Assembly (NCBI RefSeq): GCF_035046485.1
Contig: NC_085138.1
Span: 367,043,238-367,107,237 of the forward strand
Direction: 5' to 3'
Length of the DNA: 64,000 nt
Origin: Aedes albopictus
Taxonomy: Eukaryota; Arthropoda; Insecta; Diptera; Culicidae
Shown: piece after piece, positions 1-59,019 of the stretch
How the letters are laid out: each line of letters begins with the position of its first letter
How positions within the stretch are numbered: the first letter of the stretch is position 1
Translations under genes and position numbers: made by a program
Notes under the pieces: model-generated
Databases searched by the model: none
What the model was told of the DNA's origin: nothing
The model's input: the letters and a program-made list of their open reading frames with translations, nothing else

Positions 1-1198
1 TGGCGGGCGCGGTGATTCCTCCCTGGAGCCCTTTGCCATCATGTACTTTGTCTTCGACACATTAATGACTAATCCGATTCGCCTGGCTTCACTCTTTAGT
101 CAGATATTACGTTTTCACCATCGTCTCAAATTTACGAGCAATAATATCAATATCATCGGCGAAACCAAGCAGCTGAACGGACTTCGTGAAAATCGTCCCA
201 CTCGTGTTTATCCCCGCTCTTCTTATTACACCCTCCAAAGCAATGTTGAACAGCAAGCACGAAAGACCATCACCTTGCCGTAACCCTCTGCGAGATTCGA
301 AGGGACTCGAGAGTGTCCCTGATACTTGAACTACGCACATCACTCGATCCATCGTCGCCTTGATCAATCGTATCAGTTTATCCGGGAATCCGTATTCGTG
401 CATAATCTGCCATCTCGATCGATTGTATCATACGCCGATTTGAAATCGATGAACAAGTGATGTGTGGGCACGTTGTATTCGCGGCATTTCTGCAACACCT
501 GGCGGATGGCGAACATCTGGTCCGTTGTAGCGCGTTCACCCATGAATCCAGCCTGATATTGCCCCACGAACTCTCTTGCAATCGGTGATAGACGGCGGCA
601 TAAAATTTGGGAGAGTATCTTGTAGGCAGCGCTCAGTAGTGTGATCGCGCGGTAGTTTCCGCAATCCAACTTGTCGCCCTTTTTGTAGATGGGACACACG
701 ATACCTTCCATCCATTCCTCCGGTAATACTTCCTCCTCCCAAATCTTGGTAATGACCCAGTGTAGTGCTCTCACCAGTGCTTCTCCACCGTATTTTAGAA
801 GCTCGCTTGGTAGTTGATCTGCTCCAGCGGCTTTGTTGTTTTTCAACCGGCCAACCTCCTCCTCAATCTCTTGAAGGTCAGGGGCCGGAAGTCTTTCGTC
901 CTGTGCACATACTCCTAGATCTGTTACCACGCCACCTTCGGTACTTGCAACGTCGCCATTGAGGTGTTCATCGTAATGCTGCCGCCACCTCTCGACCACC
1001 TCACGCTCGCTCGTGAGAATATTCCCGTGATTATCTCGGCACATGTCGGCTTGTGGCACAAAGCCTCTGCGCGAGCGGTTCAGCTTCTCGTAGAACTTTC
1101 GTGTGTCCTTAGCGCGGTACAGCTCTTCCATCGCTTCGCGATCTCGTTCTTCCTGCTGGCGCTTCTTCATCCGGAAGACTGAGTTCTGCCTGTTCCGC
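1..1198 (-). mobile_element. RTE-clade LINE copy A, reverse transcriptase part (broken)
   Basis: The minus strand encodes an RTE-type reverse transcriptase. Visible pieces are the fingers region with IYKKGDKLDCGNYRAITLL, motif A with FIDFKSAYD, motif B with RRGLRQGDGLSCLLFN and the catalytic motif C FADDIDI. It is nearly identical to the copy at 61.2-62.4 kb. Compared with that copy it lacks 8 bases near 406, which shifts the frame just after motif A and splits the protein into two overlapping frames (373-1170 and 107-403). The copy continues off the left edge. On its 5' side it stops at about 1198, where a different RTE subfamily begins. A dead fragment; RTE assignment rests on the motif wording. 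Confidence 0.9.
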
Positions 1199-2138
1199 GG
1201 AGTGATCCATAAACTGTGGTCATTTTTGCCGATTCATAAATTGTGGGGTCACTGTACTTTGTTTTTGAGGCATTCACCACCAGTCCGACCTTTGCTGCTT
1301 CGCGTTTCAGGCGGGCGTACAGCTCTGCCGCCGCTCCAAATGTTCTGGCAATAATGTCCATGTCGTCCGAAAAGCACACAAATTGTCCGGATTTTGTGAA
1401 AATCGTTCCCCGGCTGCTGAGCCCGGCTCGTCGTATCACATTTTCCAGAGAGATGTTGAAGAGTAGGCATGAGAGTCCATCACCTTGTCTCAGTCCCCGG
1501 CGAGAATCGAATGAACTAGATAGTTCACCCGAAACCCTTACGCAGTTTTGCACATCGTCCATCGTTGCTCTTATAACTGTGGTAAACTTCCCGTGAATGC
1601 TGTTCTCGTCCATGATTTTCCATAGCTCTGTGCGGTCGATACTGTCGTATGCTGGCATGAAGTCGATGAACAGGTGGTCCGATGGGACCTGGTATTCACG
1701 GCATTTCTGGAGGAATTGCCGTACGGTGAAGATCTGTTCCCTTGTCGACCGGCCGTCGATGAAACCGGCTTGGTAACTTCTCAAGAATCCATTTACTTTA
1801 GGTGAAAGACGACGGAAGATGATCTGGGATAGCACTTTGTAGGCGGCATTCAAAATGGTGATCGTTCTGAAGTTCTCACTTTCCAAATGGTCGCTTTTAT
1901 TGTGATTGGGGCAGATTACCCCTTCCTTCTACTCCTCCGGTAGCTGTTCAGTTTCCCAGATCCTGACTATCAGCTGGTGCAAACAGGTGGCTAATTTTTC
2001 TGGTCCCATCTTGATGAGTTCAGCTGCAATACCATCCTTACCAGCTGCTTTATTGGTTTTGAGCTGGTGAATGGCATCCTTAATAGACATGGGTAACTCA
2101 CTCGCGAATCGATTCGCGAAACCGAGTGTGTGAACCAT
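1199..2138 (-). mobile_element. RTE-clade LINE copy B, reverse transcriptase part
   Basis: Minus-strand RT of a second RTE subfamily, clearly diverged from copy A. It keeps LKTNKAAGKDGIAAELIK in the fingers, YQAGFIDGRSTREQIF, motif A (FIDFMPAYDSIDR), motif B (RRGLRQGDGLSCLLFN) and a damaged motif C (VCFSDDMDI in place of FADDIDI). An in-frame stop near 1929 separates the first part (1929-2138) from the rest, and the reading frame decays after LVVNASKTKY near 1260. Its endonuclease half lies further along the minus strand at 2.7-3.5 kb. The two halves are separated by unrelated DNA at 2140-2560, so they probably form one interrupted element. Confidence 0.85.
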
Positions 2139-2139
2139 G

Positions 2140-2560
2140 CATGACTCTTTTCAAAAGAGTTATGGATCGCTGACGTTCATTACGGTTACGAAAAGAGTTA
2201 GCTTGACTACGCACATAATGGTGATTTTACGGATAACATCGCAATATTTTTTCATACCTATATTGTGTGGCAGGCTCGCACCAGACTTAACGAAAATCTG
2301 CGAGTCCTGCATTTTATTACGTCATGTTTAGACGTTTCTGCATATCGTCAACGTCTGTACCATGCAAGTGAATTTTCTCGAAAACTGGGTAGATTTGCAC
2401 TAAAGGGAGCTAGCTCACATCGAAGATCGACATTTTTCTTCAAATCCCGAAAATGAGTTACTGAATCGATTCGAAGAGTCAACTCTTTTATAAAAGCGAA
2501 TAGGGAGCGATTCACTCTCAAAAAATTAATCCATTTTCTCATCTCTAATCCTTAACTTCC
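2140..2560. other. Unassigned AT-rich segment between the RTE copy B halves
   Basis: This segment separates RT (2138) from the upstream linker (about 2560) of the same minus-strand RTE. It carries ACTCTTTT/AAAAGAGT words near both ends (2143-2162 and 2478-2500), which suggests a small inserted inverted-repeat element. I could not fix exact termini or a TSD. No coding sequence is apparent. Confidence 0.4.
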
Positions 2561-3537
2561 CTCAGCGTGGGAGTTGGTTCATTTCCGTCCTCCGCTGCAC
2601 TGGTGTCGTCGTTTCCTCCGTTGCCGTGGTCTCCCGTGCCAACATTCTCCACACCATTCAAGTGAAATTTCGATCACCTCACGTTTGTCCGACAGGAGGC
2701 TCCCGTCCTTATCCCTTCAGATTTCGGCTTGCGGCACGAAGCCTTTACGGAATGCGTGGAGCTTCTGGTGAAACTCGAGATTCTGTACGTATGCGGTGGT
2801 GACATCCAGTTGATTCAGTCGCTTCAGATCGTACCGGGGCGGCCGCCGGTACTGTACATTGTTAATAACGGAGAGTTTTGGGCGCAGTTCAACCATCACC
2901 GGGTAGTGATTAGAGTCGATATTTGCGCAACGATAGGTCCTGACGTCGATAATGTCGGAGAAGTGCCGTCCATCAATCAGAACGTGGTCGATTTGCGATT
3001 CCTTTTGTTGTGATGATCTCTCGGTGTAACGATACGGGAGGCTGTGCTGGAAAAAGGTGCTACGAATGCCCATGTTTTTGGAGGCGGCGAAATAGATGAG
3101 GCGTAGGCCATTTTCGTTCGCTGAACTTACCAATCGTCTGTCTGAATTCCTCCTCCTGGCCTACCTGAGCGTTCAAATCTCCTTTGATGATCTTGACGTC
3201 GTGGCTTGGGCAGCGATCGTACTCGCGTTCGAGCTGCGCGTAAAATGCGTCCTTGTCATCATCAGTACTTCCGGAGTGTGGGCTGTGCACGTTTATTATG
3301 CTGAAGTTGAAGAATCGGCCCTTGATCCTCAACCTGCACATTCTCATATGATTACCTCTAAACGTTCGCACCATCGATCCTGTCCAATACACCTCCTGCA
3401 GCGCTAAGATGCAGAACCCGCGGTCCTTCAGTAGATCGGCGAGTATGCGGGTGCTCCCAATGAAGTTGAGAGATCGGCAATTCCACGTACCGAGTTTCCA
3501 ATCGCAAGTCCTTTTTGTTCGCTGGGGTCGTTGCCAT
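2561..3537 (-). mobile_element. RTE copy B apurinic-type endonuclease domain and linker (pseudogene)
   Basis: The minus-strand ORF would start at the ATG at 3537 (MATTPANKKDLRL). It shifts frame within about 15 codons into GTWNCRSL and LQEVYWTG, which carry the first Asn and the catalytic Glu of the endonuclease/exonuclease/phosphatase fold. It continues through NVHSPHSGS and GDLNAQVG. A second frameshift near 3100 leads to QIDHVLIDGRHF and IDSNHYPVM. The usual final motif is S-D-H; here it is S-N-H, so a catalytic residue is lost. The domain is followed by the linker RKGFVPQAE that precedes RT in this clade. Acts in target-primed reverse transcription when intact; this copy is inactive. Confidence 0.85.
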
Positions 3538-3905
3538 TGGTCTCGGTTTGTATTATTCTGTTGCTGATTTTCCGTTACAATGGCTTTTTACGGCTGGCTC
3601 TTAGGGCCTGACACCAGCCCCCTACTTTCCGGAGAACCATAGTGCACAATTGAACTTAGAGTCCTTCCCTGGTACTCGGACGTAGATCAGCCGCCCCTAA
3701 CATGGGGATCAGATGCTGTTGTGAGCCGCTCCTCCTGGAGAACAGACGCTCAGGTTTGCAGAAGCAAACTCCTCCCCCTTCCCTGTTAGCCTACGACCAA
3801 AGTTCCCACCGGGGTTGGTTACCCGATCTTCCCTAAGGTTGCTCATAGTTTCCAGCCGGTACCGCGAGGAGGTAGGGATAGGAGTTGCTGAGAGGCTGGT
3901 GGATC
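3538..3905 (-). mobile_element. Probable 5' untranslated region of RTE copy B
   Basis: Noncoding DNA directly upstream (minus strand) of the RTE start codon, moderately GC-rich with several G/C runs. I infer it belongs to the LINE from its position and from a resemblance to RTE leaders in Aedes that I recall but cannot check here. It ends near 3905, where AT-rich DNA begins. Confidence 0.5.
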
Positions 3906-8929: not shown

Positions 8930-9207
8930 TTTATGGCTTCTTCTTCTTCTTTATGGCTCGACGTCCTCACTGGGACTTGGCCTGCCTCACTTCAACTTAG
9001 TGTTCTTTGAGCACTTCCACAGTTATTAATTGAAGGGCTTTCTTTGCCTGCCATTGCATGAATTTGTATATTGTGAGTGAGGCAAGTACAATGATACACT
9101 ATGCCCAGGGAGTCGAGAAAATTTTCCCGACCAGAACGGGAATCGAACCCGCCGTCTCCGGATTGGCGATCCTTAGCCTTAACCACTAGGCTAACTGGAG
9201 ACCGCTT
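8930..9207 (-). mobile_element. Feilai-type tRNA-derived SINE
   Basis: Minus-strand element with a tRNA-like head: an A-box-like TAGCCTAGTGG and a B box GGGTTCGATTCCC (reverse complement of 9138-9150). An unrelated body and a (GAA)n triplet tail (TTC run at 8938-8951) follow. It is flanked by a perfect 8-bp direct repeat TTAATCAT (8922-8929 and 9208-9215). A tRNA-related promoter, a conserved body and 3' triplet repeats match what I know of Feilai SINEs of Aedes aegypti. Transcribed by RNA polymerase III when active and mobilised by a LINE. Confidence 0.85.
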
Positions 9208-38639: not shown

Positions 38640-40929
38640 GAGAAATATCTGGAGTAACCCGTGAAGGCATTCCAGGAGAAATCTCTGGAGAAATTTCAGG
38701 AGGAATCCTTGAAGGACTTTCTGGGGGAATCCCTGAAGGCATTACTTTACTAAAGAAGTGCTTGAAAGAATTCTTGAACGAAGCTCTCAAATACTGGAAG
38801 AGGAGTCTAGAGAAATTCCTGTAGAATTTGAAGGAGGTACTACTAAAGGAATTGCTGGAAAAAATATTGAAGGAATTCCCTGGAGGCATTCCCAAAGGAA
38901 TCCTTGAAGAATTTCCTGGGGGAATCTTTAGAGGAATTCGTGAAAGAATTCATGGAGGAATTTGTGGAGAAGTATTTCGAAAAATTCCTGGACAAATTTC
39001 TGGAAGAGTTCCAGCAGGGGCTCATTAGCGAACCCCTGGAGTAAACTCTGGAGGCATTCCTGGAAGAAACCCTGGAGAAATTCCTGGAAGAATTTCTGGA
39101 GGAATCTCTGAAGGCATTCCTGAAGGAATCCTTGGGAGAATGCCTGGAGGTTTTCTTGTAAGAATTCTTGGAGGAACTTCTGGAATTCTGAGGAAATTCC
39201 TAGAGGGACATTTGGAGGAGTTTCTAGAGCAATTCCTGGAGGAAGCTATGAGAAATTCCTGGAGAAATCCCTGGTGTAATCCCTGGAGGAATTCCTGAAG
39301 GAATCCGTGAATTACAGGATGAAAGAAGGAATCCATGAAATAATTCATGGATGAATTGCTGGAGGAATTCCTGAAGGATTTTTTGGAAAAATTCCTGCAT
39401 GAATTTGTGGAAGAATCACTCGAGGAATTCAATAACGAACCCTTGCAGAAATTACTGGAGAAATCTCTGGAGGAATATGTGGAGCAATTTCTGGAGGAAT
39501 CAGTGGAGTCATTCCTGAAGGAATTTTTGGAAGAATCCGCGAAAAAATTCTTGGAGGAATTTCTGGAGGCATTCTTTCAAGATTCATCGGAAGAATTTCT
39601 GGAAGATTTTCAGGAGGAATACTTGGAGGAATCCCTGGAGACATTCATAGAGAAAATCCTAGAGAAAGCTTTGGAAAATTCCTGGAGAATTCCCTGCTGT
39701 AATCCTAGGAGGAATTCCTGAAGGAATCCGTAAAGCAATTCAAGGATCAATCCGTGGAGAATTATTAGAGAAACTTCTGGAAGAATCCCTAGAGGTTTTT
39801 CTAGAGAAATTCCTAAAAAAATGTAAGAATTCCTGGAAGAATTTCTGGAGGATTTTCTGAAGGAATTCTTTGAAAATTTTCTGGAAAAATATTTGCGGCT
39901 TCCGGGAGGAATGATTAAAGGAATTCCTCGAGCAAAAGAATTCCTAGAGGGATTTTTGAGCAATATCTAAAGAAATTCATTGATGAATCCCTGGAGGAAT
40001 TCCTGGCGAAATCTATGGAGGAATACCTGAAGAAATTTTTCGAGGAATTGCTGGAACAGTTCCAGGAGAAGTTTTTTCTGATGAAATCCGTGTATAAATT
40101 CTTGTAGGAATACCTAGAGGAATTCTTGGAGGAATCCATGAAGAATTTTAAGATGATTTTCCGGAGAAATTAATAGCGAAATTTTTATAGTTGTCCCAGG
40201 AGAAATTTCTGGACAGATTCGTTGAAAAGTTCCAAAAAAAAAATAAATCCTGAAAAAATGTCTGTAGAAATCCCTGGAGAAATTTCTCGAGGAATACGTG
40301 GAAGAGTTGCGGGAGAAATTTCTTCAGGATTTTCTGGAGAAATCCGAGTTGGAATTCCTTTAGGTGTCCTTGTAGAAATTCCTGGAGGAATCTCTGTAGA
40401 AATTCCCGAAGGTATTCAAGATGGAATTAACGAAGGAATTTTTGAAGGGATAATGGAGGAATTCATGGAGAAATTTCCGAAAGAATTCTTTGAGGTATTT
40501 TTTGCGAAACATTCCTGGAGAAATTCCTGGATGATTTTCTTAAGGAATCTCTGGAGAAATTCCTGGAGGAATCCATGTTTGAATTCCGGGAGGTATTTCT
40601 GGATAATTCCTGAAAATTTTTTTGGTGCAATAACTAGAGAAATTCCTGGATGAATTCTTTATGGAATTTCTGGACAAATATTTAAGGCTTCCCGGAGGAA
40701 TGTCTAGAGGAACTCCTCGAGGAATTTGTGAAGGATTTTTTTTAGTAATTTCTAAAGAAACTCATGGATGGATTCCTGGATGAATTCCCGAAGAAATTCC
40801 TGGAGAAATTCCCAGAAAAGATCCGGGAAAATCCCTGCTGTAATCCTAGGAGGGATTCCTGAAGGAATCTGTGGAGGAATTTAAAGATGAATCCCTGGAG
40901 AATTCCTAGAAAAATTTCTGGAAGAATCC
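38640..40929 (+). repeat. 12-bp minisatellite (GGAGGAATTCCT)n, left block
   Basis: About 2.3 kb of imperfect 12-bp units with AGGAATTCCT cores separated by GG. All three plus frames tend to stay open, giving EEFL, GGIP and RNSW four-residue repeats, and the minus frames also. The array continues at 45975 after the piggyBac-like insertion, in the same orientation. Confidence 0.9.
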
Positions 40930-40978
40930 TTAACCCTCCATCAGTCGCATCAAAAAAAGTTACACGAGCGGTCGCGTC

Positions 40979-40993
40979 GTGTACTCAGTACAC
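40979..40993. repeat. 15-bp palindrome GTGTACTCAGTACAC, site 1
   Basis: Preceded by a GTTACACGAGCGGTCGCG module near the left terminus. The same palindrome (centre C or G) occurs at three right-arm sites. Confidence 0.9.
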
Positions 40994-41220
40994 GGCAAAC
41001 GCTTTCAATTATGGTTTATATGCTTTACTAGATACAATGTTGGTGTCTTCGGCAAAAATGTCCAACAGGATAATGTGTGTCTGATAGTGGACATGTGGAA
41101 CCGGTCAATACGCTCTGGTCCTGTCCCGGGTGTCGGAATGGCCCTCGCGGGAACCTGTTTCGTGGACATTTCAGCTATGGCATCAAAACTAGGCATGCGA
41201 CGGCTCTATCTTCATGATTT

Positions 41221-41990
41221 TTCATGTACATCATCTTAGTAACCATGAAAATGACCAGTGACCTCCCTGGCTAACCCGTGGCCACCGGAATGTGCCCTGG
41301 AGGAACCTGTTTCGAGGACATTTTGACCATGACACCAAAACTAGGCTTGCGACGGCTCTATTTCCATGATTTTCCAAATCAATTATTTTAGTAACCATGA
41401 AAATGACCAGTGACCTCCCTGGCCAACCCGTGGCCATCGGAATGTGCCCTGGAGGAACCTGTTTCGAGGACATTGTGACCATGACAACAAAACTAGGCTT
41501 GCGACGGCTCTATCTTCATGATTTTCCATATCAATTATTTTAGTAATCATAAAATTGACCAGTGACCTCCCTGGCCAACCCGTGGCCATCGGAATGTGCC
41601 CTGGAGGAACCTGTTTCGAGGACATTGTGACCATGATAACAAAACTAGGCTTGCGACGGCTCTATCTTCATGATTTTCCAAATCAATTATTTTAGTAACC
41701 ATAAAATTGACCAGTGACCTCCCTGGCTAACCCGTGGCCACCGGAATGTGCCCTGAAGAAACCTGTTTCGAGGACATTAAGACCATGACACCAAAACTAG
41801 GCATGCGACGGCTCTATCTTCATAATTTTTCATATCCATCATCTTAGTAACCATGAAAATGGTATTTGACCTCCCTGGCCAAACCGTGGCCACCGGAATG
41901 TGCCCTGGAGGAACCAGTTTCATGGACATTTTGACCAAGGCGCCAAAACTAGGCGTGCAACTGCTCTATCTTTTTGATGTTCCGTCATCT
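41221..41990 (+). repeat. 152-bp tandem repeat, five units (left arm)
   Basis: GACCAGTGACCTCCCTGG-like starts fall at 41253, 41405, 41557, 41709 and (diverged) 41861, exactly 152 apart. Units are similar, with substitutions such as CCTGGCC/CCTGGCT. Open frames through the array are by-products. Confidence 0.95.
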
Positions 41991-42110
41991 AGGGTAAATC
42001 GCCAATTGTTACACACCTTAAAAACTCGCCAATTTTTGCACATCTCATAAGCAAAGCATGGAGTGTGCAACAAAGTTTTCAAGGTGTGCAGTAATTGACG
42101 ATTCACCCTA

Positions 42111-43079
42111 ACTAACCGTGACAAAGACCAGCGCTCACGGTTCCCACTCTATATGAGGGCGGTCATGCATATAATTTTCGCTCATAGCATGGTGAAACCT
42201 GTAATTTGATACCTATTTGCCACTCAAAAGCGTTTATTGTAGTGTATAAAAATATGTTCAATCTTGTTTTGTAATTTTTGAATAGAAAGAAATAAAAAAA
42301 AGTTTTTGCTTCACGGAGCCGAAATTTTTTGTTTTGTGGTTTTGGTTACCAACTGATTTGTATACAGTCATACCTCGGTATAACGTAGCCTCGATATAAC
42401 GTAACTTTTTTATGGTGCCAATGTTGCTATTTGAATAATAAGCGTGATTCACGGAATAGTCTTTATGATATTACGCTCCTCCTGGAACCAGGTCTGCTAG
42501 CCAGTTAAGTGTTATACGAACAATTTCGCAGTTATATGATAGTTTTCGGTGTCATAAATTTTGTTTAGCTGCTAATTGCAACATGTTTACGTTTCACTTA
42601 ACGAATGAAGTTGAGTAACTGCAACGCCTGACAGATGTCATCAAGCCATCAATTGACGTAAAATGAACTTCATGTGACTGTTCCTAGGTCAGAGGAACTT
42701 ATTCACCTAGCGTGAATGAGGATAAAGCATCAGTTACTTCTGCATTTTGTTATATGAAGATCCTGCTTTTTCTCTTCGTTTAATTCATCCACATTCATTC
42801 AATTCCTCCAGCCTATTAGGGCAAACATGGCACATCATTTTGACGTTTGGCGGTGCGATAACTTAAAATTTGTTGAACTTACCGGACTTACAGGTAAAAA
42901 GCATTGCAGTTAAACCTTTTCACCGACCGAACGTCTACTGTACTTATTCTTGACATATCATTCCTAATGAAACATAGCCTTCAAACTCTAAAAGACATGA
43001 CAGTAGACAGCAGTGTAAGCAAATTCGGTTTCATGCGATACTGCGAGTTATAACGCCGGGGCAAGTCCGCCTTGTCTTA
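42111..43079. other. Central non-repeated part of the piggyBac-like element
   Basis: AT-rich, no transposase frame on either strand. It includes TACCTCGGTATAACGTAGCC and CGATATAACGTAAC near 42,370-42,405, which resemble ends of other mosquito elements but are not paired here. Confidence 0.4.
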
Positions 43080-43536
43080 GAAGAACCCTGCAGAAAATCG
43101 CTTAAGAAATTCTTTGATAAATCCCTAAAGAAATTTCTTGATAAATTTCTGGCGAAATTTCGTGATATATCCCCCGGATGAATTTCCACCGAAATATGCA
43201 AAGGTATTCTTGGTATAAATCCTAAAGGAATTCATGGAATAATCACATGAAGAATTTATGTAGAAATGCAACATGAAGTACCAGCGGGAATTTCTGGAGG
43301 GATTTAAAGCAAACTTCTAGAGGAATCACAGCGAGAATCTATGGAAAAGGCGAAATTCCTAAAGGAATCATTAAAAGAAGTGCTTTGAAAGAAAATGAGG
43401 CATCCCTGAAGTAATTCAGCAGGGTTTCCTGGAACCAGAAATCTTTGATTGAATCTATGAAGAAATTAATGCTGGTTTTTGCCGAAATCCTAGCATGAGT
43501 TTTCGGAAGAATTACCGGTGAAATCCCTGGAAATAA
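43080..43536 (+). repeat. Minisatellite fragment inside the piggyBac-like element
   Basis: Degenerate AAATTCCT/GAATCC 12-bp-type units, similar to the arrays outside the element. Suggests that minisatellite DNA was captured or exchanged. Confidence 0.6.
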
Positions 43537-43906
43537 ATTACTTATGAGATGTGCAACAATTGGCGAGTTTTTAAGGTGTGTAACAATTGGCGATTTACCG
43601 TAGATGATGGATATAGAACACCAAAAAGATAAAGCAGTTGCATGCCTAGTTTTGGCGGCTTGGTCAAAATTGTTCTCAAAACAGGTTCCTTCAAGGCAAA
43701 GTCCTGTGGCCACGGGATGACCAGGGAGGTCACTGGTCCTTTTCATGGTTACTAAGATGATGGAAATGGAAAATCAGGAAAATAGAGCCGTCGCAAGCCT
43801 AGTTTTGGCGTCAAAGCCAAAATGTCAACGAAACAGGTTCCTCCAGGGCACATTCCGGTGGCCACGGTTTGGCCAGGAAGGTCACTGATCATTTTCATGG
43901 TTACTA

Positions 43907-44822
43907 AGGACTGTTCATTAAAGAAAGTGGACATCTGCTTACCAATAGTTTAGAGTTAAAACTAAACAAAAAAATGTGAATTTATGCTCAGTGTGTAAAA
44001 ACATTGTTCACTTCGACAATACACTCAAAGAAAACGGAAAAAGTAAGAAATTTCGAGCGATACGTCGTATTAGCTTTGCGACTAGCAAATTAATTCTGCA
44101 CAAATGGTGTTCCAAAAAGTTGTCGTTTCGAGAATTGACTTACTAATACACTTCCGGGACCGCAATTTTTTAACGCTAAGCAGGGGACAGATGTGCCGGA
44201 TGATGTAGGGTACATCAGAACTGAAAAATTTGGGAAAATTTTTTTGGTGTGGTAAGCCGATTGTTCATGTGGCTTAAAGAGTTCTCCGTATTTTACAACG
44301 GGAACAATCAACGGTGAAAATAACAGAACGGAATGCATCAAAAAACGACTTCTACCCATCTACCGAAAACATACGGATCCTCTTTTGTTTTAGGCGGATC
44401 TGGCATCCGCTTATTACGCTTCTTCTACACTAGAGATGCTCAAGACGGAAAAAGTCGATTTTGTCGAAAAATGGCAAAATCCACAAAACTTCTCTGAGCA
44501 GCTTCATGTGGAAAGATACCGGACAATAATTAAGCGGCATCTGAAGAAAAATGGAAGAGAAGCAAGCTCTGTTGATTGCTTCAAAAAAAATTGGTCTGCG
44601 GCACAACGAAAAGTTACGGAGAAAGTTGTGCAGAATCTTATGGGAGGTATCAAGAGGAAAGTCCGAGCGTTCTTCCGAAAAGCGAAGTAAATGTTCAAAC
44701 TCACGTGAATTCGGCCACATATATGTTGATTGTCATTTATAAAAAATAAACTTATCAATTTGTTCAAAAATACATATTTTCTATTGAAAAACAGGTGTCC
44801 ACTTTCTTTAATGAACAGTCCT
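43907..44822 (+). mobile_element. Tc1/mariner-superfamily element, DD37E type (916 bp)
   Basis: A perfect 27-bp TIR starting AGGACTGTTCATTAAAG and ending with its reverse complement, with TA duplicated (43905-43906, 44823-44824). The host 152-bp repeat gives the empty site GGTTACTAAGATGATGG. Internally deleted: only the second half of a transposase remains. Confidence 0.92.
44190..44690 (+). pseudogene. DD37E transposase remnant
   Basis: The translation includes KFGKIFLVW, FTTGTINGENN, TECIKKRLLP, then ADLASAYYA (second catalytic Asp, with the preceding Trp changed to stop) and VERYRTIIKRHLKKN with the catalytic Glu. The C-terminal helix is VVQNLMGGIKRKVRAF, and a stop is at 44690. Exactly 37 residues separate Asp and Glu, which defines the DD37E group known from mosquitoes. 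Two in-frame stops precede the Asp, and the N-terminal DNA-binding part and first Asp are missing. Not functional. Confidence 0.88.
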
Positions 44823-45680
44823 TAAGATGATGGATATGAAAAATTATGAAGATAGAGCCGTCGCATGCCTTGTTTTGGTGTCATGGTCAAAATGTCCTCG
44901 ACACAGGTTCCTCCAGGGCACATTCCGGTGACCACGGGTTGGCCAGAGAGGTCACTCGCAGTTTTTTTTCGGTTACAAAGATGATGGATATGGAAAATCA
45001 TGTAAACAGAGCCGTCGCATGCCTAGTTTTGGTGTCATGGTCAAAATGTCCTCGAAACAGGTTCCTCCAGGGCACATACCGGTGGCCACGGGTTAGCCAG
45101 GGAGGTCACTGGTCATTTTCATGGTTACTTAGATGATGGATATGAAAAATCATGAAAATAGAGCCGTCGCATGCCCAGTTTCAGTGTCATGGTCATAATG
45201 TCCTCGAAACAGGTTCCTCCAGGGCACATTTCGGTGGCCACGGGTTGGCCAGGGAGGTCACTGGTAATTTTCATGGTTACTAAAATAATGGATATGGAAA
45301 ATCATGAAGATAGAGCCGTCGCATGCCTTGTTTTGGTGTCATGGTCAAAATGTCCTCGAAACAGGTTCCTCCAGGGCACATTCCGGTGGCTACGGGTTAA
45401 CCAGGGAGGTCACTGGTCATTTTCATGGTTACTAAGATGATGTACATTAAAAATAATCATGAAGATAGAGCCGTCGCATGCCTAGTTTTGATGCCATAGC
45501 TGAAATGTCCACGAAACAGGTTCCCGCGAGGGCCATTCCGACACCCGGGACAGGACCAGATCGTATTGACCGGTTCCACATGTCCACTATCAGACGTGCA
45601 TTATCCAGTTGGACATTTTTGTCGAAGACACCAACATTGTATCTAGTAAAGCATATAAACCATAATTGAAAGCGTTTGCC

Positions 45681-45769
45681 GTGTACTGAGTACACGACGC
45701 GACCGCTCGTGTAACGGTCTGGTTCAAAAAAAAGTTACACCAGCGGTCGCGCCGGTGTACTGAGTACAC
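45681..45769. repeat. 15-bp palindromes, sites 2 and 3
   Basis: GTGTACTGAGTACAC at 45681-45695 and 45755-45769, with GTTACAC...GCGGTCGCG modules in opposite orientations between them. A fourth copy lies at 45937-45951, 4 bases inside the 15-bp right TIR. Symmetry fits a dimeric-protein binding site, which is inference. Confidence 0.85.
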
Positions 45770-45974
45770 ATTTAAAATGTGAGGTTAGAATTACGTGTTT
45801 TTCGAGTACTTTCCGTGCATTTTTTCATTTTTTTTCTGCCTTACTAACAAGAAGAAGAGTGGATCTTGGAATAGGACCAACACCCGGTTCAATTTGGTGC
45901 AAATTTCGATTATTTATTTGCATTTTTTTGAGACGCGTGTACTCAGTACACGCAAGCGACTGATGGTGGGTTAA

Positions 45975-54548: not shown

Positions 54549-55272
54549 AAATGCTTTTTTTTCGATTTACTGAAAACACTAAAACCTCAATTTATTTTTA
54601 TGCACTTTCAATTTATGCACCTTTTTTATGCCCTGCATAAAAAGAGGGAAAGCTACCCTGAACCAATATTGTGCATAAGAATATTTAATAATGACGGTAA
54701 CTATTGCAACGGAGGCCTGTGGGTGTTAATAGGGGTGAACACATGGAAGTCACTGTGGAGTTACAGGGGGTCTCAAGGGGTTTCCGCGGGGTTGTCGGGG
54801 GATTTGAGGGGATTTTCGAAAGTATTGCAGTTACATAGGGTCCGAGGGGATTTTAGAGGGATTTTGGAGGCATTTCAGGAAGTTTCAGAGCATTTTTGGC
54901 GAGATTTAGAGGCCTTACAGAGGCGTTTTCGGGGGTTTCGGAGCGTCGCAGGTGCGTTACGTGGGGTCTGAAGGGGCTTAAGGGGGATTTTGAAGGCATT
55001 GCAGGATGTTTCAGAGCATTTTCGGCGGGATTCAGGGGCGTTACGGAGAGTTTTAGGGGGTTTCTGAGCGAGTCAGGTGCGTTACATGGGGTCCGAGAGG
55101 GTTTTACGGAGATCTTTGGGGCATTTCAGGAAGTTGCAGAGGATTTTTAGGGATCCCATCCCAAAATCCTTTGAAACGCCCCTGAAACGCTATTTGATTT
55201 AAAGATGTTCTTGAAACCCCCTGATACGACCCTAACCTGAAATACCTCGAAACGCCCCTAAAATGCTATCAT

Positions 55273-56979: not shown

Positions 56980-58385
56980 AATCTGTGTGTTCAAACTACT
57001 GCATTCGTCGACTCATAAAAACGAACATGTTAACTCTCTTCGCCCACGCCATTCATACTCTCCGTCCGACGTTCTTCTCCGAACTCCGACAACTCTCTCT
57101 CCCTAGCGATGCACATTGCCCAACACCGTCGAAGAAAAGCGCGCATTTTTCCTGCACACCACGTGGTGGGCGCGCAAGTGCCCGCCGCATCTCCTCTTCA
57201 TCGGTCTCTTTCCTTCGCGTAGGCGCACGATACGCTCTCTCGCGTGTGGAAAAAAGGATATCACTGTGTCGTCGTGGATGACTGTTATTATGTGTTTTTC
57301 TTTCCATTCACCCCGGTACATTCAGAGGAAAACTGTGAGCATCAGGGAGTTTTTGTTCGTATGTAGGTATTTGTTGTGATGCATCCACACTCCACAGTGG
57401 GAATGCGTGTTTGCTTCGGTTTAGACTAGAGGTACGACGGCGCGTCGTCGCTCGGTGTTGAATTTTCTTCTTTATTCCCTGAATCGGAGTCAAAACCGTT
57501 TTCCCCCGCGCTTCGCTTCTGGATCCTCCCTCCTTCATCCTCGCGTGTTCAAGATACCTTCTTACACATGGTTTGTGCTCTTTGGTGGTGTTGTTATTTG
57601 TTAGCTGGTTGGGTTGGATGGTATCTCTCGTCGGGTGTTCTGTTCGGGTTTTTTGCTGTTTTCCATTTTTGTTGTTGGTTCGGTCGCTCTTTTATCAAAA
57701 TATCAACAGTGGAACAGATTATGATGGGACCATTATGTGTTTAGAATTCGACGTGAAAACATCATTGCGCGAACGGGAGATATCTCGCTTGTTCTGGACG
57801 GCCTACTGACTCGGTAAATCGGGCTTTGGGAACGCTAACGGCTTCTACGGTTTTTGATAAGAGGAAAACGCCGGATTTAGGACAGGATCCCTTGCGTTCA
57901 AACTGTTCAAATCGTGTAATCTACGAAAGGTGTGTTTGCCAAATGTTGGAAATGATGTTGCAATGTGAATGTTTCAATGTGAGAAGACCTACAAAAACAC
58001 ATAGAAAAGAGTAAAAAAATGACCGAGATCGATTGCATCTGAACTGCACACAGAAAACCGCAACTGATAAGAGGCAGCCTAATTTGGCACACGCGTTTTG
58101 TCCTCTGATAGCGCGCGGAGTCGTTCCGTTGCAAAGATAATTGAAGTGTGAATTGATTGCAGTGTATGACAGAAAAAAAAACGTAAACGAATTGCTCCGG
58201 CAGAGATATCAAACGCGACGATTTCGCAATTAAGAAGTGATATAATCGTGATATACAGAGCACAAGGTGACAAATAAAACAAAAGAATTGTGAGAGAAGA
58301 CGCGACTGGGGTGACGTGCAAAGTTGTAGTGACCTAATTAGAAAAATTAAAAACGGAAACAGTACCCACCTCCCGCAAGTTCACA
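56980..58385 (+). promoter_or_regulatory. Probable promoter and 5' leader of the SoxB gene
   Basis: GC content and CG dinucleotides rise sharply compared with the repeats to the left (57,040-57,560). No transposon or minisatellite signatures are seen up to the start codon, which fits a long 5' untranslated region. TATA boxes, transcription start and upstream exons cannot be fixed by eye; several out-of-frame ATGs precede the Sox ATG. Inference from position only. Confidence 0.45.
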
Positions 58386-58693
58386 ATGGACATGACCATG
58401 GCGTCCAAACTTCATCTGTCCTGCAGTGCGGGTAGCAGTAGTGGTAACGGAACGTCCCATTCAAACGGAACCACCAGTAGCAGCAGTAGCAGTAGTAGCG
58501 GAACAGCTACCGGTGAACACATCAAACGGCCGATGAATGCTTTTATGGTGTGGTCCCGGGGGCAGCGGCGGAAGATGGCACAAGATAACCCCAAGATGCA
58601 CAACTCGGAGATATCGAAGAATCTGGGAGCGCAGTGGAAGCTGCTGACCGAGGGCGAGAAGAGACCATTCATCGACGAGGCCAAACGATTGAG
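58386..58693 (+). CDS. SoxB-group HMG-box transcription factor, first coding exon
   Basis: An exon of 308 coding bases beginning ATGGACATGACC. Residues 1-43 are a Ser/Gly/Thr-rich leader with an eight-serine run. The HMG box starts at about residue 46 with [19 protein letters not shown], then [11 protein letters not shown] and [11 protein letters not shown], and is cut at residue 102 by a GAG/GTAAGC donor, so about three quarters of the box is here. Wording is SoxB (SoxN, Dichaete, Sox21a/b) and closest in my judgement to SoxB2. Sox proteins bend DNA in the minor groove and control neural and segmental genes. Oddities: [11 protein letters not shown] where SKRLGAEWKLL is usual. The next exon is not seen in the remaining 5.3 kb. 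Confidence 0.9.
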
Positions 58694-59019
58694 GTAAGCG
58701 GTTGTGTGGATTTGCCGACGGGTGTCGGGAGGATATCCCGGGGAATTTGTTTTGGGCTTTTCAAAATTTCTTGAGTTACTCTGAAACCTCGAAACCTTGT
58801 TGTCAAAATTTTTACTCCAAAATGTTTTTTAGGGATGCTTTCTTCTCATTATCCAGTTACCAGCATTATCCAGTTAGCAAATACAATTATTCGTAAGAGC
58901 TGAAATTTCTATTTTTTATAGGGCACTGCATGCCACAGATCGCTAAGATAGAGTGTTTGCCGTTTCGAGGTCTTATTGTTTACTATTCGAACTAAAAATT
59001 ATCGTCAGCTTTCGGTGGC
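58694..59019 (+). other. Start of the Sox intron
   Basis: Begins GTAAGCGGTTG. Unremarkable AT-moderate sequence with no element identified before the minisatellite at about 59,020. Confidence 0.5.

Follow-up and report, generated by a model that had tools for sequence, protein, structure and literature searches.

A TTAA-flanked foldback element family of Aedes albopictus with 152-bp tandem arrays in its arms, likely of the piggyBac superfamily

Introduction

The Mutator superfamily is the one with which foldback elements have chiefly been connected; Galileo is assigned to the P superfamily (PMC4079207, PMC3688188). What, then, is to be made of an element that has the foldback body plan and is flanked by TTAA? 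One such element lies at positions 40934–45970 of a 64,000-nucleotide stretch of the Aedes albopictus genome (NCBI RefSeq assembly GCF_035046485.1, contig NC_085138.1, positions 367,043,238 to 367,107,237 of the forward strand), which is referred to here as the window and supplies the coordinates used below. An original prediction, read from the letters of the window, took it for a piggyBac-like foldback element with 152-bp repeat arrays in both arms. The follow-up described here indicates with good confidence that the window copy belongs to a TTAA-flanked family of several hundred ends, with CCC tips and 152-bp arrays in inverted arms, and that the family is likely non-autonomous, moved in trans and part of the piggyBac superfamily.

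The copy in the window

Foldback denotes a plan (inverted tandem-repeat arms around a middle segment) and not a lineage, and the window copy has that plan. Its parts are listed below, where TIR stands for terminal inverted repeat, and LE35 and RE63 for the left end (LE) and right end (RE) of Trichoplusia ni (T. ni) piggyBac, to which the tips are compared further on.

40930–40933: TTAA target-site duplication, left
40934–40948 (+): left TIR CCCTCCATCAGTCGC; among 23 left ends, TIR position 4 alone varies
40934–40993 (+): conserved left tip, bp 1–60, RE63-like; holds the TIR and a second GTCGC at bp 38–42
40979–40993 (+): left-tip palindrome GTGTACTCAGTACAC, bp 46–60 of the left end
40994–41133 (+): remainder of the left flanking domain of the arm
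41134–41983 (+): left array of 152-bp units, five full and a degenerate sixth
41984–42054 (+): left inner domain, an inverted repeat with 43538–43605
42055–43537: centre; six frames without a Pfam family, pieces 82–99% identical to other copies in either orientation
43538–43605 (−): right inner domain
43602–43906 (−): right array, inner portion (period-152 call at 43602–43908)
43907–44822: nested Tc1/mariner-type insertion with TA duplication and end repeats, a later arrival foreign to the element
44823–45540 (−): right array, outer portion
45541–45970 (−): right flanking domain, 430 bp, about 230 bp of it absent from the left arm
45681–45695 (−): arm palindrome at bp 276–290 counted from the right end; corresponds to the left-tip site
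45755–45769 (+): third right-end palindrome, bp 202–216, its GTCGC-type box reversed in orientation
45937–45970 (−): conserved right tip, bp 1–34, LE35-like; TIR CCCACCATCAGTCGC and palindrome at bp 20–34
45971–45974: TTAA target-site duplication, right

The two TIRs, each of 15 bp (the right one at 45956–45970), differ by one mismatch. The inverted arms align as 40959–41846 against 44823–45715 (92.5% over 894 columns) and continue inward as 41692–42054 against 43538–43907 at 85%, so that the TTAA flanks, the CCC-initial TIRs with their single mismatch and the inverted arms are all confirmed as first described. A 118-bp near-palindrome (41989–42106, TAGGGTAAATCG...CGATTCACCCTA) lies at the left inner domain and may be what is left of a small, separate element lying at the family's core.

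Tandem Repeats Finder calls period 152 at 41134–41983, 43602–43908 and 44823–45540, and successive units are spaced 152 apart throughout, apart from two steps in the right arm, of 155 and 154. Full inner units are 84–97% alike, the outermost units are 81–89% identical to inner ones, and the degenerate innermost pieces (L6 on the left, R7 on the right) are 68–78% identical to the remaining units; between the arms, the outermost pair (L1/R1) is 98% alike and the innermost pair (L6/R7) 88%. The repeats had been called exact, which holds for their period but not for their letters. By aligned length there are 5.6 units on the left and 6.8 on the right: the predicted numbers, five and six, stand for full units and become six and seven when the degenerate innermost pieces are counted.

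The right array is interrupted by an insertion of 916 bp (43907–44822), with a TA duplication (43905–43906 and 44823–44824) and with the first 27 bp identical at its two ends. A mariner insertion had been predicted in this array and is borne out as a Tc1/mariner-type one, a name given for the TA duplication and the end repeats, Pfam having recognised no transposase in the two longest frames tried from it. One other copy, L009 (copies outside the window are labelled by locus), carries the insertion at the identical place and at 98.6% identity; none of the other 22 copies compared does. The left flanks of L009 and the window copy are unrelated, so the element that bears the insert is likely to have moved once the insert was in place.

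A family of several hundred ends

The genome searched was the window's own (1,344,132,971 bases in 1494 contigs). The left 467 bp of the element, used as query, gave 908 candidates, of which 40 were scored and 20 stretches of 10 kb were fetched; because these were chosen from left-end matches, they lean towards well-kept left ends. Forty places, among them the window copy itself, match almost the full query at 95–100%. The TIR alone has 468 exact genomic matches (control 0), and 391 of them (84%) adjoin TTAA: TTAACCCWCCATCAGTCGC, the TTAA together with the TIR, has 193 + 198 exact matches and its reversed control 0 + 0, a count on which a chance origin was rejected. Viral contigs scanned for the TIR and the 152-bp unit gave 0 matches. 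Among the first 100 TTAA + TIR places, 12 are single, and the other 88 fall into 44 convergent pairs whose members lie within 20 kb of each other. Designated by the letter at TIR position 4, 38 of these pairs are T/A, six are A/A and none is T/T; they span 3,394–17,886 bp, with a median of 6,628.

Nineteen copies are complete in the fetched stretches: 17 T/A copies, counting the window's, and two A/A copies fetched besides (L009, L015, L018 and L022 extend past the fetched stretch and stand outside the complete counts). In all 19 the ends are exact and the 4-bp duplications match, reading TTAA in 17 and TTAG/TTAG (L012) and ATAA/ATAA (L019) in the other two. These are the 4-bp TTAA duplications of the piggyBac superfamily, not the 8–10 bp target duplications of Mutator-type elements. 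In Pokey, a piggyBac element of Daphnia, target sites are TTAA in 88%, TTAT in 6%, ATAA in 5% and CTAA in 1%, and the minor sites found here are common to both, TTAG being CTAA on the other strand (PMC3849761). The complete copies are 2,916–8,441 bp long and the pairs 3.4–17.9 kb, unlike the short, length-homogeneous copies of a miniature inverted-repeat transposable element (MITE). The ends of the T/A copies diverge mutually by 1.5–4.2% and from the two A/A copies by 4.2–6.9%. This range, like the right-end conservation count given below, excludes L027, which has an insertion in its right end: about 2.3 kb extra lie between its TIR and array compared with other copies.

The flanks of the 17 T/A copies are mutually dissimilar, which makes them separate insertions; duplication of a larger locus as the source of the copies was ruled out by the same unrelated flanks. 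A degenerate 12/24-bp GGAATTCCTGGA-type array stands on both sides of the window copy (38.6–40.93 kb and 45.97–49.5 kb) and was probably one stretch before the element inserted. Joined with TTAA once, the window flanks align to 39594–40078 at 78.5% over 494 columns, gap-free within 40 columns of the junction, and the relative has CTAG where the window has TTAA; since the surrounding array is repetitive, this empty-site match is suggestive and not proof. The joined flanks of L019 and L026 likewise have local relatives that span the junction at 72–81%, one with a one-base gap there. At L011, joining the flanks with TTAA once gives a frame open for 244 codons over the junction, and this host frame resembles, by eye, the reverse transcriptase of a long interspersed nuclear element (LINE).

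Conserved tips and their layout

The tips of the element are far better conserved than the sequence next to them. A comparison of 23 left ends finds 2 variable columns out of 60 in bp 1–60 versus 33 out of 140 in bp 61–200 (Fisher 2e-4); for 18 right ends the counts are 0 out of 34 in bp 1–34 versus 35 out of 166 in bp 35–200 (Fisher 1e-3). These Fisher figures assume independent columns and ignore the kinship of copies. Both conserved blocks hold the palindrome GTGTACTSAGTACAC, at bp 20–34 of the right end and bp 46–60 of the left end. In the consensus, GTCGC occurs at bp 11–15 of both TIRs and again at bp 38–42 on the left, so that the offset between left and right is 27 bp for GTCGC and 26 bp for the palindrome. 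Deeper in the right arm, 1 of 35 columns is variable at the arm site (bp 256–290) and 6 of 36 at the third site (bp 202–237).

A similar arrangement has been described for T. ni piggyBac. There, a palindromic site for the cysteine-rich domain (CRD) of the transposase lies at LE bp 17–33, and RE bp 34–63 are nearly identical to LE bp 7–35, with a 17-bp insertion and a duplicated motif (PMC7351741). The native T. ni enzyme requires this asymmetry of LE and RE in cells, and the LE35/RE63 layout has been termed puzzling and enigmatic (PMC7351741). Judged by sequence, the ends of the Aedes element are asymmetric like LE35/RE63 in position and layout: both elements have TTAA, a palindrome that is close to the tip at one end and lies some 27 bp deeper at the other, and a duplicated motif outside it. 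T. ni piggyBac differs in having its own transposase, functional ends of 35 and 63 bp and other palindrome letters (PMC7351741). Asymmetric subterminal palindromes of the T. ni type are not universal in the piggyBac superfamily; since piggyBat ends are laid out otherwise (PMC11707139), their presence here supports membership of the superfamily without being required of it.

The outermost letters point the same way. Termini of the form CC[C/T]T are a piggyBac hallmark (PMC2872659). All 19 complete copies have short CCY-initial TIRs, as in the piggyBac superfamily, with termini CCCT or CCCA: the left CCCT of T/A copies fits the hallmark fully, and CCCA ends match its first three letters only. 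T. ni piggyBac also has CCC tips and is not known to have array arms.

Gain and loss of units within the arms

For the family as a whole, the comparison drew on 23 copies and on 346 units, each 140 bp or longer. The outermost units of both arms make up a single stable type: their similarity is 0.95 between elements and 0.967 inside one element, against 0.834 to inner units (in incomplete copies, whose true right ends were not fetched, outermost right units are possibly mislabelled). Inner units average 0.90–0.91 alike, and 0.91 within one arm. All 19 complete copies have arrays in both arms, with 3.7–12.9 units on the left and 3.7–21.5 on the right by aligned length, and unit number thus does differ between copies, as the original prediction had asked to be checked. 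The nearest relative of a unit lies within its own element in 114 of 346 cases, a figure that 500 shuffles never approach (at most 29). Over 3,415 columns L009 agrees with the window copy at 97.9%, yet their left arrays have 22 and 6 units; L009 carries repeated multi-unit blocks, and L024 has three-unit blocks at 99–100%. The near-identity of L009 and the window copy in spite of 22 versus 6 units, together with the blocks in L009 and L024, implies that blocks have been added within arms.

The arrays could be functional, each 152-bp unit serving as an accessory transposase-binding site and the long arms favouring pairing of the ends. The tandem repeats of Galileo provide a precedent (PMC3688188), a third CRD site added to the left end of T. 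ni piggyBac raises integration about two-fold (PMC7351741), and the stability of the outermost unit type (0.95 between elements against 0.83 to inner units) could be read in the same sense. However, comparison of the unit consensus with the end palindrome, two composite sites and the TIR gave no match beyond shuffles (158 of 300 shuffles reach the palindrome match), although the motif of the cognate enzyme may differ, and left and right unit numbers are uncorrelated over the 19 complete copies (rho −0.08, p 0.75). As the unit has no recognisable end palindrome, the original prediction's suggestion of extra binding sites is unsupported, and we consider it unlikely.

Less likely again is that assembly, by collapsing or expanding repeats, produced most of the variation in unit number. 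Arrays whose 152-bp units share about 90% identity or more are difficult to assemble, but the units of one array can be told apart (mean similarity 0.91 among the inner units of an arm), those in the right arm of L009 stay in register with those of the window copy at 96–99%, and unit numbers vary over all 19 complete copies. It is more doubtful still that the unit is an independent satellite captured by TTAA elements. Block duplications and satellite-like higher-order patterns would suit such an origin. A 20-mer of the unit has 1655 exact matches in the genome, however, and the first 100 of these are all in complete elements (81) or less than 10 kb from a single exact end (19), with no free satellite among them.

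Orientation of the centre

The centre between the arms occurs both ways round. It could be scored in 22 copies, namely 20 of 21 copies (L023, with almost no centre, is excluded) and both A/A copies: 17 have it as in the window and five have it flipped (L014, L017, L021, L025 and L028). A tree of the ends, weakly supported, does not unite the five flipped copies. Flipping by recombination between facing arms would be a simple explanation, and the arms and flipped centres together suggest that the element can fold back.

Superfamily assignment and the search for a transposase

The one other TTAA-duplicating superfamily weighed, Kolobok, shares the TTAA duplication, and a Xenopus TTAA MITE that carries a tandem repeat is of the T2 family placed in it, but Kolobok ends start RR/AG (PMC6004289) where all 19 complete copies here start CCC, and the asymmetric palindromes fit the T. 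ni piggyBac layout, so that a Kolobok-type element is highly improbable and was rejected on its terminal letters.

Several results weigh against a piggyBac-superfamily family moved in trans. Six frames of four centres (window, L011, L029 and L030) gave no transposase in Pfam; the L030 centre has one weak match below the cut-off, and a reverse-transcriptase match (PF00078, E 7.8e-13) at L011:2690–7580 (−), in a frame read with X at stops, is a nested retroelement piece. Pfam comparison of five small frames from the window copy, the nested insert contributing two, gave two weak matches, both below the cut-off. The piggyBac transposase domain PF13843 has 117 genomic matches. None of them comes closer than 94.6 kb to any of 47 exact A-type left ends, and the second-nearest is at 420 kb; the comparison is one of exact ends, in which the T-type left ends of C3 and of most of C2 do not figure. 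None of 38 PF13843 places on the listed part falls within a TIR pair among the first 100 TTAA + TIR places, and six loci around seven PF13843 matches (one of which, in L036, is close to the edge of the fetched stretch) have neither TIR nor palindrome within 3 mismatches. The proposed search for an autonomous relative with shared ends thus found none among the ends compared; an autonomous partner may still exist in the genome. On the side of the target sites, 77 of the 468 exact TIRs are not at TTAA, although the complete copies all have matching duplications, TTAA in 17 of 19 and a variant of it in two. Joined flanks had no junction-spanning relative in 14 of 17 cases (306 kb compared), the window, L019 and L026 being those with one, and of the three junctions translated, those of L023 and L026 gave no long frame across and L011 alone did. 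Finally, the letters of the end palindrome differ from those of the T. ni site, and the match is limited to position and layout.

One of these six loci, L033, holds a different element: a CCC/TTAA-bounded pair 5.7 kb apart surrounds a 487-codon PF13843 frame, and its tips differ, which makes it a separate family.

Given a non-autonomous element of the piggyBac superfamily, a piggyBac-type transposase encoded elsewhere in the genome would cut and paste it in trans. The enzyme would bind the LE35-like right tip (TIR, GTCGC and the palindrome at bp 20–34) and the RE63-like left tip (with GTCGC again 27 bp inward and the palindrome at bp 46–60), and the two further right-arm palindromes could be accessory sites. 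The arrays are probably not binding sites and behave instead like a satellite inside the arms, in which multi-unit blocks are gained and lost, perhaps through unequal exchange (the differences between copies are observed). Recombination of facing arms might flip the centre, which is observed in both orientations.

Comparison with known systems

The body plan itself is already published, for Tetris (Mutator suggested) and Galileo (P). Tetris of Drosophila virilis has the same succession of a flanking domain, a variable tandem-repeat domain (about 220 bp in Tetris), an inner domain and a non-coding middle; for Tetris, too, the search for an autonomous copy found none, and two near-identical Tetris alleles differ by one unit (PMC4079207). 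It differs in its 8–10 bp duplications, in its suggested place in the Mutator superfamily, in its three structurally complete copies, and in that its repeat also forms long satellite-like arrays (PMC4079207), of which there are none here among the first 100 places. Galileo shares the long inverted arms with internal tandem repeats but its transposase is P-type, contains a THAP domain and has binding sites within those repeats (PMC3688188), whereas the Aedes element has a TTAA target and a unit without an end-site match.

Two other systems share the amplification of repeats within a TTAA element. Pokey, of the piggyBac superfamily, contains a variable number of repeats of about 200 bp; these differ in lying 5′ of the transposase and deriving from the ribosomal DNA (rDNA) spacer, and foldback arms are not described in the portion of the paper cited (PMC3849761). 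The T2-MITEs Xmix and Xstir of Xenopus have tandem repeats amplified within a TTAA element but are MITEs with Kolobok-type AGGRR ends, and the cited excerpt describes no inverted array arms (PMC6004289). A literature search over titles and abstract openings, which reached neither Repbase (a consensus may be there) nor most subscription journals, turned up no piggyBac foldback element.

It seems probable that ends of the piggyBac superfamily have here been turned into a mobile mirror-image satellite of hundreds of copies, whose 152-bp arrays change independently between constrained tips of LE/RE type, and that the foldback plan has arisen again in piggyBac. If so, the TTAA/piggyBac-type foldback would mean that the plan comes about repeatedly and does not belong to a single transposase, and end design, arm length, array growth and centre flipping could be read copy by copy. 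The recurrence of the T. ni LE35/RE63 layout in different letters, with its 27-bp offset and conserved blocks, would be a natural test of end asymmetry, and the several hundred ends, the shared nested insert and the range of about 4–22 units per arm could make satellite growth within a transposon traceable step by step. Long facing arms may also be causes of inversions and double-stranded RNA.

Neighbouring features

Elsewhere in the window, a drz-agam-1 ribozyme of the hepatitis delta virus (HDV)-like kind is found at 3777–3894 (−) (RF01787, 53.8 bits), and same-strand frames near it, at 376–3587, resemble by eye a reverse transcriptase and endonuclease. A tRNA-like match at 9128–9200 (−) scores 31.5 bits, barely over the Rfam gathering score. 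To the right of the element, a 126-bp tandem repeat of 2.5 copies occupies 54830–55147, and a frame at 58338–58694 (+) resembles, again by eye, a SOX high-mobility group (HMG) box.

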